NCBI GenBank assembly: GCA_002919235.1
Contig: PKEX01000008.1
Location: forward strand, 62,001 to 126,000
Direction of reading: 5' to 3'
DNA: 64,000 bases
Source: Clostridia bacterium
GTDB taxonomy: Bacteria > Bacillota > Limnochordia > DTU080 > RSA5
Shown here: piece by piece, positions 32,920 through 36,362 of the stretch
Layout of the letters: each line of letters opens with the position of its first letter
How positions within the stretch are numbered: position 1 is the stretch's first letter
Notes under the pieces: model-generated
What the model was told of the DNA's origin: nothing
Database searches by the model: none
The model's input: the letters and a program-made list of their open reading frames with translations, nothing else
Made by a program: the position numbers and the translations under genes

Positions 32920-33134
32920 GCGGGGGCACCCCCTTTCCGGCGGCTTCACCGCCGCTGCCCCGTCCGCGGCTGCATCTCCTGGCCGGTACTGTTATCATAT
33001 TCCTCGGAAACCGGCGACAGGGCCCGGGGCATCACTTCGGCGGCGCCGAAGCCCCCTCCTTCAGCCCGGGTCCAGCTTTCCCCGGAGCGCACCGTTGTGG
33101 TATCCTTGAGGTGCAGAGAAAAGGGAGATCCGCG

Positions 33135-33980
33135 ATGGCACAGGTGAAGGAACAGGTCGTCACGCTCCAGTCCGGCGATTCGCGGATAGGCGTCCCGTGC
33201 GCCGTCTGCTCCTCGCCCCTCGCGGCGGGCGAGGAGGCGGTGTTCTGCCCCCGCTGCAAGAGCGGCCATCACCTGCGCTGCTGGATTCAGCAGGGCGGCT
33301 GCGGCCGGCGCGGCTGCCGCCAGGTAGCCAGCCGGGAGCTGCTGCCCGAAAAGGTGGAAGCGCCCATCCGCCCGTCAAAGATCCCGCCCCGGGCGATCGC
33401 CGCCGTGGTGGCCGCGATCCTCTTCATCGGCGGGTGGCTGGTCTGGAATGCCCGGAACGCCGCCATCATCCGTGCCAACACCATGACCGTGATGGTCCCG
33501 TCCCTCGAAGACGATCTCCTCTGGCGTCAGCTGGTCGACGAGTACAACGAGGATCCGCCTACGGGCAAACGCCTTGAGCTCATCTACACGCCGTACGGCC
33601 CCACGGGCATCGACTACGAGCAAAAGCTCCTCGTCCTCCTGGCCGCGCGGGACGGCCCCGAAGTGGTGGTCCTTGAACCTGACCTCTTCTCCGTCTATCT
33701 CCAGCAGGAATTCCTCACCCCGGTCGACGAGGTGGTGGCTGCCCTGGTGGAGCAGGGGGTTCCCTTGGACGCCGCGCGCCTGGCGGAGGCCCGGCGGGAA
33801 GGCGCCCACTACGGGATCCCCCACCCCGAGCGCCACGCCTTCCTGGTCACCCCGGTGGTCACCCGGCACACCGGAGAGGGGCCCGAGCTCCTCCGGGTGA
33901 TCGCCCAGCGGCTTTACGAGCTGACGGTTCCGGAGGCGCTGCGCGCCGCACCCGCACCGGAAGCGGAAGCCGCGCCCTAA
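33135..33980 (+). CDS. RING-finger-like zinc domain, membrane helix and solute-binding-like domain protein
   Basis: 281 residues. Residues 22-61 hold C22-x2-C25, C38-x2-C41, H45/H46, C49, C56 and C61, spaced like the prokaryotic RING finger family 1. A single membrane helix follows at about 87-104. The remaining part (TMTVMVPSLEDDLLWRQLVDEY, RDGPEVVVLEPDLFSVYLQQ) resembles a truncated extracellular solute-binding protein fold. Topology puts the zinc domain in the cytosol. ATG at 33135 after GGGAG. It ends convergently on the flavin reductase stop. Function unknown; possibly a membrane sensor. Confidence 0.65.
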   Translation: MAQVKEQVVTLQSGDSRIGVPCAVCSSPLAAGEEAVFCPRCKSGHHLRCWIQQGGCGRRGCRQVASRELLPEKVEAPIRPSKIPPRAIAAVVAAILFIGGWLVWNARNAAIIRANTMTVMVPSLEDDLLWRQLVDEYNEDPPTGKRLELIYTPYGPTGIDYEQKLLVLLAARDGPEVVVLEPDLFSVYLQQEFLTPVDEVVAALVEQGVPLDAARLAEARREGAHYGIPHPERHAFLVTPVVTRHTGEGPELLRVIAQRLYELTVPEALRAAPAPEAEAAP

Positions 33981-34599: not shown

Positions 34600-35229
34600 G
34601 TGATCCAGATCGAGACGCTGTCCATCGGCCCGATCGAAACCAACTGCTACATCGTGCGGGACGCAAACCGCCGTGCGTTCGTCGTCGACCCCGGATGCGA
34701 ATACCAGCCCATCCTGGACGCGGTGCGGGGCCTCGAGGTGACCGACATCCTCCTCACCCATGCGCACTGGGACCACATCGGCGGTGTCGCGGCGCTGAAG
34801 GAGGCCACCGGGGCCCGGGTGTGGGCGCACGAGGCGGAAGCCCAGTGGCTCCTGGATCCCCGGCTCAATCTCTCGTCGGAGGTACCGTTCCTCCCGCAGC
34901 CGGTGGTCGCGCCTGCGGCGGACGTCCTGCTCAAGGGCGGCGAGCGCTTTGAACTGCTGGGACAGGCCATCGAAGCCCGGTTCACCCCGGGCCATTCGCC
35001 GGGGCACCTGTCCTACGTGATGGGGGACGTGGTCTTCGGCGGCGATGCGCTGTTTGCGAGTTCCATCGGGCGGACCGATCTTCCCGGAGGCGACTACCCG
35101 ACGCTGATCCGGAGCATCCGTGAGCAGCTCCTCACCCTCCCGCCGGAGACCGCCGTCCTGCCCGGCCACGGTCCGTCCACCACCGTGGAGCGGGAGCGGC
35201 GGACCAACCCGTTCTTGGCGCTGGGCTAG
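34600..35229 (+). CDS. MBL-fold hydrolase, glyoxalase II-like
   Basis: 209 residues. The metal motif THAHWDH (HxHxDH) lies near residue 55, followed by TPGHSPGHLS, GDALFASSIGRTD and LPGHGP, giving a full set of ligands for two metals. This group includes hydroxyacylglutathione hydrolase-like and persulfide-dioxygenase-like enzymes; substrate is not determined. The GTG start follows GGAGG. A TG-extended -10 TACAAT at about 34541 may be its promoter. Confidence 0.85.
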   Translation: MIQIETLSIGPIETNCYIVRDANRRAFVVDPGCEYQPILDAVRGLEVTDILLTHAHWDHIGGVAALKEATGARVWAHEAEAQWLLDPRLNLSSEVPFLPQPVVAPAADVLLKGGERFELLGQAIEARFTPGHSPGHLSYVMGDVVFGGDALFASSIGRTDLPGGDYPTLIRSIREQLLTLPPETAVLPGHGPSTTVERERRTNPFLALG

Positions 35230-35256
35230 AGGCGAGGCGCGGGCGCCTTCCGCCCG

Positions 35257-35285
35257 TTGACTTCATAGCCCGGCAGGACTATAAT
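35257..35285 (+). promoter_or_regulatory. Promoter of the aroF attenuator leader
   Basis: -35 TTGACT (35257-35262), 17-base spacer, perfect -10 TATAAT (35280-35285). Transcription should start near 35292, about 33 bases before the leader-peptide ATG. Confidence 0.9.
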
Positions 35286-35324
35286 AGGGACAACATCCAG
35301 TTTCCGGGCGAGGAGGTGCACACG

Positions 35325-35405
35325 ATGCGGGCCGCCGGTATCCGCCGGTTTGATCGCTCGTTCTTTTTTGGGTACTGGTACGGCTTTACGTATCGTGTGC
35401 CCTAG
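35325..35405 (+). CDS. Aromatic leader peptide controlling aroF
   Basis: A 26-codon open frame with ATG at 35325-35327 and TAG at 35403-35405, preceded by GAGGAGG at ideal spacing (eight bases). Nine of 26 residues are aromatic, and residues 13-23 read FFFGYWYGFTY: eight of eleven are Phe, Tyr or Trp. The frame ends inside the 5' arm of an antiterminator hairpin. This is the classic design of a ribosome-sensed amino-acid attenuator leader. The peptide itself needs no function. Confidence 0.9.
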   Translation: MRAAGIRRFDRSFFFGYWYGFTYRVP

Positions 35406-35468
35406 AACGAGCCGCCTCTCACGAGACGCTTGGGCCTGGGGCACACGAAAGACGCCCCGGCCCTTTTT
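35395..35468 (+). terminator. Attenuator: mutually exclusive antiterminator and terminator
   Basis: Antiterminator: GTGTGCCCT (35395-35403) pairs with GGGGCACAC (35438-35446). Terminator: GGGCCTGGGGC (35432-35442) pairs with GCCCCGGCCC (35454-35463, one bulge), followed by five U (35464-35468). The arms overlap at 35438-35442, so only one can form. A ribosome stalled on the aromatic codons (35361-35393) leaves the antiterminator free. A ribosome reaching the stop masks its 5' arm and lets the terminator form. Confidence 0.88.
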
Positions 35469-35495
35469 GTATGCCGCCGACAAGCAGCTCTGCAC

Positions 35496-35529
35496 GGGCC
35501 GTGGGCCATTGGCACCCACGGCCCTTTTT
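35496..35529 (+). terminator. Second intrinsic terminator before aroF
   Basis: A perfect ten-base stem GGGCCGTGGG (35496-35505) with CCCACGGCCC (35515-35524), nine-base loop, then five U (35525-35529). It lies 28 bases past the first terminator's U-run and 36 bases before the aroF start. Confidence 0.88.
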
Positions 35530-35564
35530 GCTGGAGAGGCGCCCGGCCGAGCGGAGGGAGACCC

Positions 35565-36362
35565 GTGATCGAGAACGGCCAATTCACCGTCATCGCAGGG
35601 CCTTGCGCCGTCGAGACCTACGAGACGACGCTGGCCTGCGCCCGGAGCGTGTTGAACGCCGGCGCCGCGCTGTTCCGGGCGGGAGCCTACAAGCCTCGCA
35701 CCAATCCCAAGTCCTTTCAAGGCCTGGGGGACAAGGGCCTCGAGATCCTGGAAGCCGTACGGCGGGAGACGGGGATCCGCATCGTCACCGAGGTGATGGA
35801 ACCGGGGCTGGTGGAGAAGGTGGCGGCCTGCGCGGACGTCCTCCAGATCGGGACCCGCAACATGAGCAACTTCCCGCTTCTGAAAGAAGTGGGCAAGGCG
35901 CGCCGCCCGGTCATCCTCAAGAGGGGGATGGCCGCCACCCTAGACGAGCTCCTGCACGCCGCGGAATACATACTCCAGGAAGGGAACGAGCACGTGATCC
36001 TCTGCGAGAGGGGGATCCGGACGTTTGAAACCTACACCCGCAACACCCTGGACCTCAGCGCGGTGCCTGCCCTCAAGGAGCTCACCCATCTGCCCGTGAT
36101 CGTCGACCCCAGCCACGGCACGGGGCGCCGGTCCCTGGTGCCGCCCATGGCCCTGGCCAGCCTGGCCGCGGGAGCCGACGGCATCATGGTGGAGGTGCAC
36201 CCCGACCCGGACCGCTCCTGGACTTCCGACGGCAAGCAGTCCCTGGACCTCGCCGGCTTTGAGCGCCTCATGGAAGACGTGAAGAGGCTCCTCCCCCACT
36301 TCGGCAAGGAGCTGGCGCCGGCCTGGCCCAAGCGCACGCCCCACGCCGCGCGGTTGGCGTAG
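35565..36362 (+). CDS. aroF: DAHP synthase (type I-beta), core form without N-terminal regulatory domain
   Basis: Condenses phosphoenolpyruvate with erythrose 4-phosphate, the first step of the shikimate pathway. About 265 residues form only the TIM barrel: VIAGPCAVE at the start, [30 protein letters not shown] and [10 protein letters not shown], with the metal and PEP ligands (Cys, Lys, His, Glu, Asp) in place. Many I-beta enzymes carry an extra N-terminal ferredoxin-like or chorismate mutase domain for feedback control; here the GTG at 35565 (after GGAGGG) leaves no room for one. Expression is controlled by the upstream aromatic attenuator instead. Confidence 0.93.

Follow-up and report, generated by a model that had tools for sequence, protein, structure and literature searches.

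The trp, phe and his attenuators of E. coli operate by the order in which their segments are synthesized, and the segments of the his attenuator of E. coli and Salmonella are named A to F. When we folded hisL, the strand AGATCTTCCAG paired with GGAAGATC, the 5' arm of the terminator. The extra hairpin that lies between the sensing region and the terminator of the his leader has been proposed to minimize basal read-through (PMC1183508). Other described systems share a part of their layout with the locus analyzed here. In ermK of Bacillus licheniformis, two adjacent Rho-independent terminators follow one leader peptide (PMC4335068) as they do in our locus; ermK senses macrolides and not amino acids. 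The aroR-aroF system of Corynebacterium glutamicum also combines an aromatic (Phe/Tyr) leader peptide with a DAHP synthase gene, and the excerpts of that report which we consulted mention no second terminator (PMC11802643). Salmonella mgtCBR has two attenuators in series in one leader, but these act independently, with two leader ORFs, two signals and, as far as the excerpts describe them, no stem-loops resembling intrinsic terminators (PMC3641672). Tandem terminators are likewise found in the rimP-leader of Gammaproteobacteria, whose second terminator has inverted stem motifs; an amino acid leader peptide is not part of its description in the excerpts (PMC2965389). Judged by titles and the starts of abstracts, the open-licence literature yielded no amino acid attenuator whose two terminators are coupled in the way described below.

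The window, by which we mean the whole 64,000-nt stretch of DNA that was analyzed (GCA_002919235.1, contig PKEX01000008.1, positions 62,001-126,000 of the forward strand), encodes a DAHP synthase of 265 amino acids with a GTG start (35565-36362; this and all features below are on the plus strand), which is matched by the NCBIfam profiles PRK08673 (395 bits, cut-off 335) and TIGR01361 (360 bits, cut-off 268). DAHP synthase catalyzes the first step of aromatic amino acid synthesis. Upstream of the gene, a sigma-70-like promoter, TTGACT-17-TATAAT (35257-35285), agrees with the consensus at 11 of 12 positions (0.1 expected in shuffles). It is followed by AGGAGG (35311-35316), the ribosome-binding site of the leader peptide, and by a 26-codon ORF for the leader peptide MRAAGIRRFDRSFFFGYWYGFTYRVP (35325-35405), in which eight aromatic residues fall within 11 codons (FFFGYWYGFTY) and provide the Phe/Tyr/Trp sensing codons. 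A short leader ORF with AGGAGG, an ATG and clustered FFF and YWY codons is the trp/phe-type arrangement. The ribosome-binding site of the DAHP synthase gene itself, GGAGGGAG, lies at 35553-35560. Elsewhere in the window, a 289-aa ORF (33111-33977) has, by eye, a Cys-rich start like that of a zinc ribbon, a probable membrane segment and a part resembling solute-binding proteins; the NCBIfam search returned no match for it.

The 5' arm of the antiterminator (AT), strand A (TCGTGTGCCCTAG, 35393-35405), is located between the sensing codons and the leader stop, overlapping the last leader codons and the stop. Its 3' arm, strand B (CTGGGGCACACGA, 35436-35448), overlaps the 5' arm and the loop of the first terminator (T1); both strands emerged from the repeat search and from folding. 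The A:B hairpin has 13 pairs and a folding energy of -33.3 kcal/mol, compared with -20.1 kcal/mol for the T1 stem-loop (B:C, 35432-35463), whose stem has a one-base bulge (T35437) and which is conserved in G001, G002 and G004. The 3' arm of T1, strand C (35454-35463), is followed by a U-tract (35464-35468). Since AT and T1 are mutually exclusive in the window, and the Phe/Tyr/Trp-rich leader is combined with a 13-pair A:B helix that competes with T1, we regard T1 as an ordinary ribosome-mediated attenuator. The layout of A, B and T1 is standard for this type, and a response to starvation is predicted from it. A T-box or riboswitch was not matched by Rfam up to an E value of 1 in 35200-35600. 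Segment 1 (35318-35329), in the start region of the leader, can pair with 35389-35400 (92% over 12 nt, also seen in folding), which would act as protection when the leader is untranslated. The start and ribosome-binding region 35315-35325 (GGTGCACACGA) is nearly a copy of the T1 5' arm and loop at 35438-35448 (GGGGCACACGA), so that strand A is able to choose between both. In an untranslated window leader termination would be favored, and the leader's own start codon might be silenced.

The initial annotation had placed a second, perfect ten-base terminator (T2) at 35496-35529, and the coordinates hold. The T2 stem-loop (D:E, 35496-35524; -21.8 kcal/mol), which is also conserved in G001, G002 and G004, consists of ten perfect pairs between strand D (GGGCCGTGGG, 35496-35505; repeat search and folding) and strand E (CCCACGGCCC, 35515-35524) with a 9-nt loop, and TTTTT follows at 35525-35529. 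The same annotation had located the T1 3' arm correctly, at 35454-35463, whereas the gap that it gave as 28 bases is 27 bases from the T1 U-tract and 32 bases from the T1 stem. A simple terminator scan, limited to loops of 8, called neither T1 nor T2. The complementarity of C to much of D, also claimed there, was found as six pairs (35458-35463 with 35496-35501), a C.T mismatch and two further pairs (35455-35456 with 35503-35504); the repeat search gave 89% over 9 nt, and the duplex of the full arms amounts to -21.9 kcal/mol. As a null, we used 22 confident terminators, taken from the window and from stretches sampled in G128, G140, G085, G188 and G000. This set, which contained no real tandem pair, replaced a first control set of 33 tandem hairpins that were mostly coding noise. 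The C:D pairing of the window beats all 462 pairings of these terminators. Of 5,000 random pairings within a less strict collection (895 terminator-like hairpins, many of which are coding noise), only 0.38% were stronger. Some likeness is to be expected in any case, because GGCC-type stem bases are partly self-complementary. An alternative explanation is that T1 is the sole regulated terminator, with T2 as a constitutive, partly leaky fail-safe and the likeness of C to D as a matter of shared GC-rich bases. The T1-T2 linker is in keeping with this, as its folds do not surpass those of shuffled linkers (p 0.43 and 0.29; p 0.43 for the 32-nt linker of the window), and linker structure was rejected as evidence for coupling for lack of any gain over the shuffles. 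However, a constitutive terminator would cap induction, and with the covariation described below we consider a fail-safe T2 unlikely.

We favor instead a chained attenuator of the DAHP synthase gene, with A:B, B:C, C:D and D:E as alternative pairings that switch between the fed and the starved state, and we put the probability of this reading at roughly 0.75. The elements, their conservation and the covariation can be read from the sequences; the order of folding and the physiological effect we infer as follows. As long as aromatic amino acids are available, the ribosome would reach the leader stop and cover A, B would take C to form T1, D would be left for E to form T2, and transcription would end at either terminator. 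With aromatic tRNAs uncharged, the ribosome would stall at FFF/YWY, A would take B, and the freed C would capture D upon its transcription, before E exists, so that both terminators would be blocked. Leaders from other bacteria, described below, suggest that a single stalled ribosome opens both terminators, C holding D open. Fed-state read-through would be the product of two small numbers, both terminators answering one ribosome event. Because one event would drive both and read-through would multiply, the two terminators most likely lower fed-state leakage and widen the range rather than steepen the response into the sharper switch that the initial annotation had expected.

The relay itself, in which a free C pairs with D and opens both terminators, had been proposed in the initial annotation; nascent-chain folding and the recurrence and covariation of C:D elsewhere speak for it, whereas T2 usually wins at equilibrium. 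In whole-leader equilibrium folding, a ribosome at the leader stop gave probabilities of 0.97 for T1 and 0.94 for T2. With the ribosome on FFF, AT rose to 0.97 and T1 fell to 0.00 with T2 at 0.94, and with the ribosome on YWY, AT and T1 had these same values with T2 at 0.5. Full-length T2 was 0.82 to 0.94 under most conditions and 0.5 with the ribosome on YWY, and when AT was forced, T2 reached 0.87 compared with 0.13 for C:D. With A free, a drop of T2 exceeding 0.05 was seen at just 3 of 43 loci, and this predominance of T2 in most loci would also fit a fail-safe T2. An ever-winning T2 had been named beforehand as the outcome that speaks against the relay, and it was found at equilibrium for most conditions in the window and for most relatives. 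It was found for the E. coli controls as well: with the antiterminator strand free, the terminator probabilities of trpL, pheL and hisL are 0.96, 0.954 and 0.997, so the equilibrium test cannot reject an attenuator. Equilibrium switching, mostly negative and undiagnostic in view of these controls, was therefore set aside as evidence.

The check that had been suggested for the relay, folding with and without T1, gave a clear difference on the nascent chain, in contrast to the equilibrium, at which T2 mostly formed. With the 3' end at 35522 and C free, C:D reached 0.74 and T2 0.01, whereas with C held in T1, T2 reached 0.92. C:D appears once D emerges and persists to an accessible end of 35522, and T2 gains afterwards; the part of the T2 stem that C:D occupies is its base, which closes last. 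With C free and with C held, respectively, T2 of the window was 0.00 and 0.87 when the 3' end was three nt back, 0.02 and 0.90 when it was one nt back, and 0.51 and 0.91 with the full hairpin. Across the 43 loci, freeing C lowered T2 by more than 0.3 in 23, 12 and 8 loci at these three positions. In terms of this modeling, the relay in the window is plausible if the decision falls while E emerges and marginal if T2 can equilibrate.

A DNA similarity search for direct homologs was positive in only 1 of 59 other genomes. In G001, a genome of the same family (contig PKEU01000149.1, MAG RSA8) with a DAHP synthase 80% identical to that of the window, the leader end FGYWYGFxYRVP with its stop, A, B, T1 and T2 are kept, the T1-T2 linker has diverged, and the T2 stem shows C-G in place of the window's T-A. 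T2 of G001 is followed by TTTCCTTTT, a poorer U-tract, as would be expected if the T2 hairpin served chiefly in the stability or processing of the enzyme mRNA at its 5' end and were no terminator. Against such a role, the other tandem members listed have U-tracts after T2, and the U-tract of T2 is retained even in leaders whose first hairpin has none, which makes it very improbable. A model (R1) built from the window and G001 was searched against 98 loci and revealed two more cases upstream of DAHP synthase within the window's order, L005 (G002, E 0.0086) and L006 (G004, E 0.047), both of which a class-wide search under stricter filters had missed. Their leaders are aromatic (WRFYFSFFF and WRFYYYYFYF), and each locus has an antiterminator and T1, followed after 12 nt by a second terminator. 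Both retain C:D with a different sequence, TGCGGCC with GGCCGTA or GGCCGCA. The window's own version occurs in four genomes only, too few for covariation within that group.

DAHP synthase loci were considered on a wider scale, with 80 contig loci and with genomes from the class (72), from the order to which G074 belongs (Desulfobacterota; 116) and from the class to which G073 belongs (93). From these, 197 upstream regions, duplicates included, were scanned (the best loci per search and 20 further stretches). By a fixed rule, tandem terminators were found at 37 loci among these 197 regions; L010, L102 and one of the two L199 pairs were dropped as unlikely terminators, leaving 35 pairs. The loci were selected for tandem terminators and not for C:D, and in 30 of the 35 pairs C:D is among the strongest 5% of the confident-terminator null. 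Among the regions scanned, the tandem DAHP synthase attenuators make up four groups. The first is that of the window's order. The next two come from Desulfobacterota, one being a family of which FGRFFFSFRSVHPVV is an example leader, the other a type whose leaders contain Trp (L107, L194, L197 and L199). The fourth is that of the class of G073 (L077, L151, L156 and L157; also L152, L153 and L159). The relay coupling is well supported by the recurrence of C:D with other sequences in these other tandem attenuators, together with its covariation in repeated switches. The tandem layout is not universal, since aromatic leaders with a single terminator occur as well (L013, L020, L038, L050, L053, L063, L080, L091, L096 and L104, among others). 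Nine regions upstream of second DAHP synthase copies showed neither an aromatic leader nor a terminator by the rules used.

Several further observations were made in this survey. The four loci of the third group belong to another Desulfobacterota copy of DAHP synthase, with NRFWYWWCS and FCWWWWQF leaders ahead of tandem terminators, and their Trp-containing leaders suggest DAHP synthase copies specialized for different aromatic amino acids. Elsewhere in Desulfobacterota (L138, L142, L143 and others), the attenuator often precedes frames of ~630-670 codons that contain DAHP synthase and are probably fusions with another pathway enzyme. Aromatic-rich short ORFs are found upstream of DAHP synthase in several phyla, for example in the Chloroflexi MAGs L049, L050, L057 and L099, mostly with one terminator. 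This attenuator type seems to be widespread and is matched by no Rfam family in the window or in 18 other loci: Rfam 15 gave no match in the window, and a tRNA was the sole match over the 18 relatives.

The Desulfobacterota family, with 33 distinct leaders (two were missed by the motif and added by hand), allowed C:D to be analyzed statistically. The mean score of each leader's own C with its own D was 6.20 compared with a permuted mean of 5.77, and none of 20,000 permutations of D reached it; by the same approach, the likeness of D to the T1 5' arm was not significant (p 0.13). On the alignment A3 (31 leaders), 93.5% of the C:D cells are paired, 12 cells show double changes, and the covariation of 0.281 compared with 0.211 for shuffled alignments was reached by none of 500 shuffles. 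Slid versions of C:D were all far worse than the true register, and as references on the same alignment, T1 is 95.9% paired with a covariation of 0.213 and T2 98.6% paired with 0.393. At position 2 of C and position 6 of D, the 33 leaders have C-G (18), T-A (8), T-G (1), C.A (4), C.T (1) and G.G (1). Where this position of C is T, D has A in 8 of 9 leaders, and the T1 5' arm still has G in those eight (Fisher p 0.0003), so D tracks C and not B. The match of each C to its own D, the covariation and the tracking of C by D where the T1 5' arm does not follow all count against a fail-safe T2. The second C:D pair is broken (C.A) in 4 of the 33 leaders (L125, L146, L147 and L184). On the enzyme tree, which covers the 21 leaders for which an enzyme sequence is available, the T-A state requires seven changes, at least three of them forced by supported branches. 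Among phylogenetically independent pairs, 2.7 of 3 supported pairs changed the same way and none the opposite way (p 0.25, with too few pairs for significance).

The resemblance of C to E calls for another explanation to be weighed. In the window, C with its U-tract and E with its U-tract are identical at 14 of 15 positions, so that T2 could have been copied from the T1 3' arm or the two kept alike by conversion, with C:D as a functionless by-product; since C resembles E, recurrent conversion between both 3' arms could mimic part of the covariation. This origin is improbable, however, in view of the repeated parallel switches in C and D across the enzyme tree and of five loci (L152, L153, L159, L077 and L136) in which D is Watson-Crick paired with C but has only G.U with E. 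Apart from C:D, the leaders L123-L150 and L180-L193 have a conserved leader-peptide end, RSVHPVV, and the RNA arm that encodes it (GTCCATCCGG) pairs with CCGGGTGGAC; the conservation is best explained by this RNA arm and not by the peptide itself.

Five of the 33 Desulfobacterota leaders (L125, L139, L146, L147 and L190) have no U-tract after C, defined as fewer than 4 T in the 7 nt that follow C. In these five leaders, 31 of 35 C:D positions are paired, with the second pair being C.A in L125, L146 and L147. C:D therefore persists where the first hairpin is no terminator, which is a further point against a fail-safe T2 with a chance likeness. In such leaders, A would be able to regulate by termination only via C:D, which would be the layout of the his operon. 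The his attenuator and the window share chained alternative pairings and an extra hairpin ahead of the terminator, and by C:D complementarity and covariation the 3' arm of the first hairpin is the antiterminator of the final terminator, as in the his type. They differ in the sensed amino acids and in the gene, and above all in that the extra hairpin of his has no U-tract, whereas that of the window, with the U-tract of T1, is a terminator itself, so that one event would control two; the five U-tract-less leaders are of the his type in this respect too. Accordingly, the window version may be a his layout whose middle hairpin has gained a U-tract, or the his layout may be a window version that has lost it, the change being conceivable in either direction.

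The attenuator as such is ordinary; what we judge to be new is a his-type chain whose middle hairpin is itself a terminator. It is fairly probable, though less so than the chained attenuator in the window, that such "domino" attenuators are a recurrent class before DAHP synthase genes in distant groups, in which the 3' arm of the first terminator is the antiterminator of the second, and which turns into the single-terminator his layout, or arises from it, as the U-tract behind the first hairpin is lost or gained. Natural variants with and without the first U-tract are available for comparison, and they offer a directly testable case of one RNA strand that would complete one terminator and counteract the following one. 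The arrangement may also serve as a design for low-leakage amino acid sensors. It would also show how a simple attenuator can grow into a longer series of RNA switches under a single sensor.
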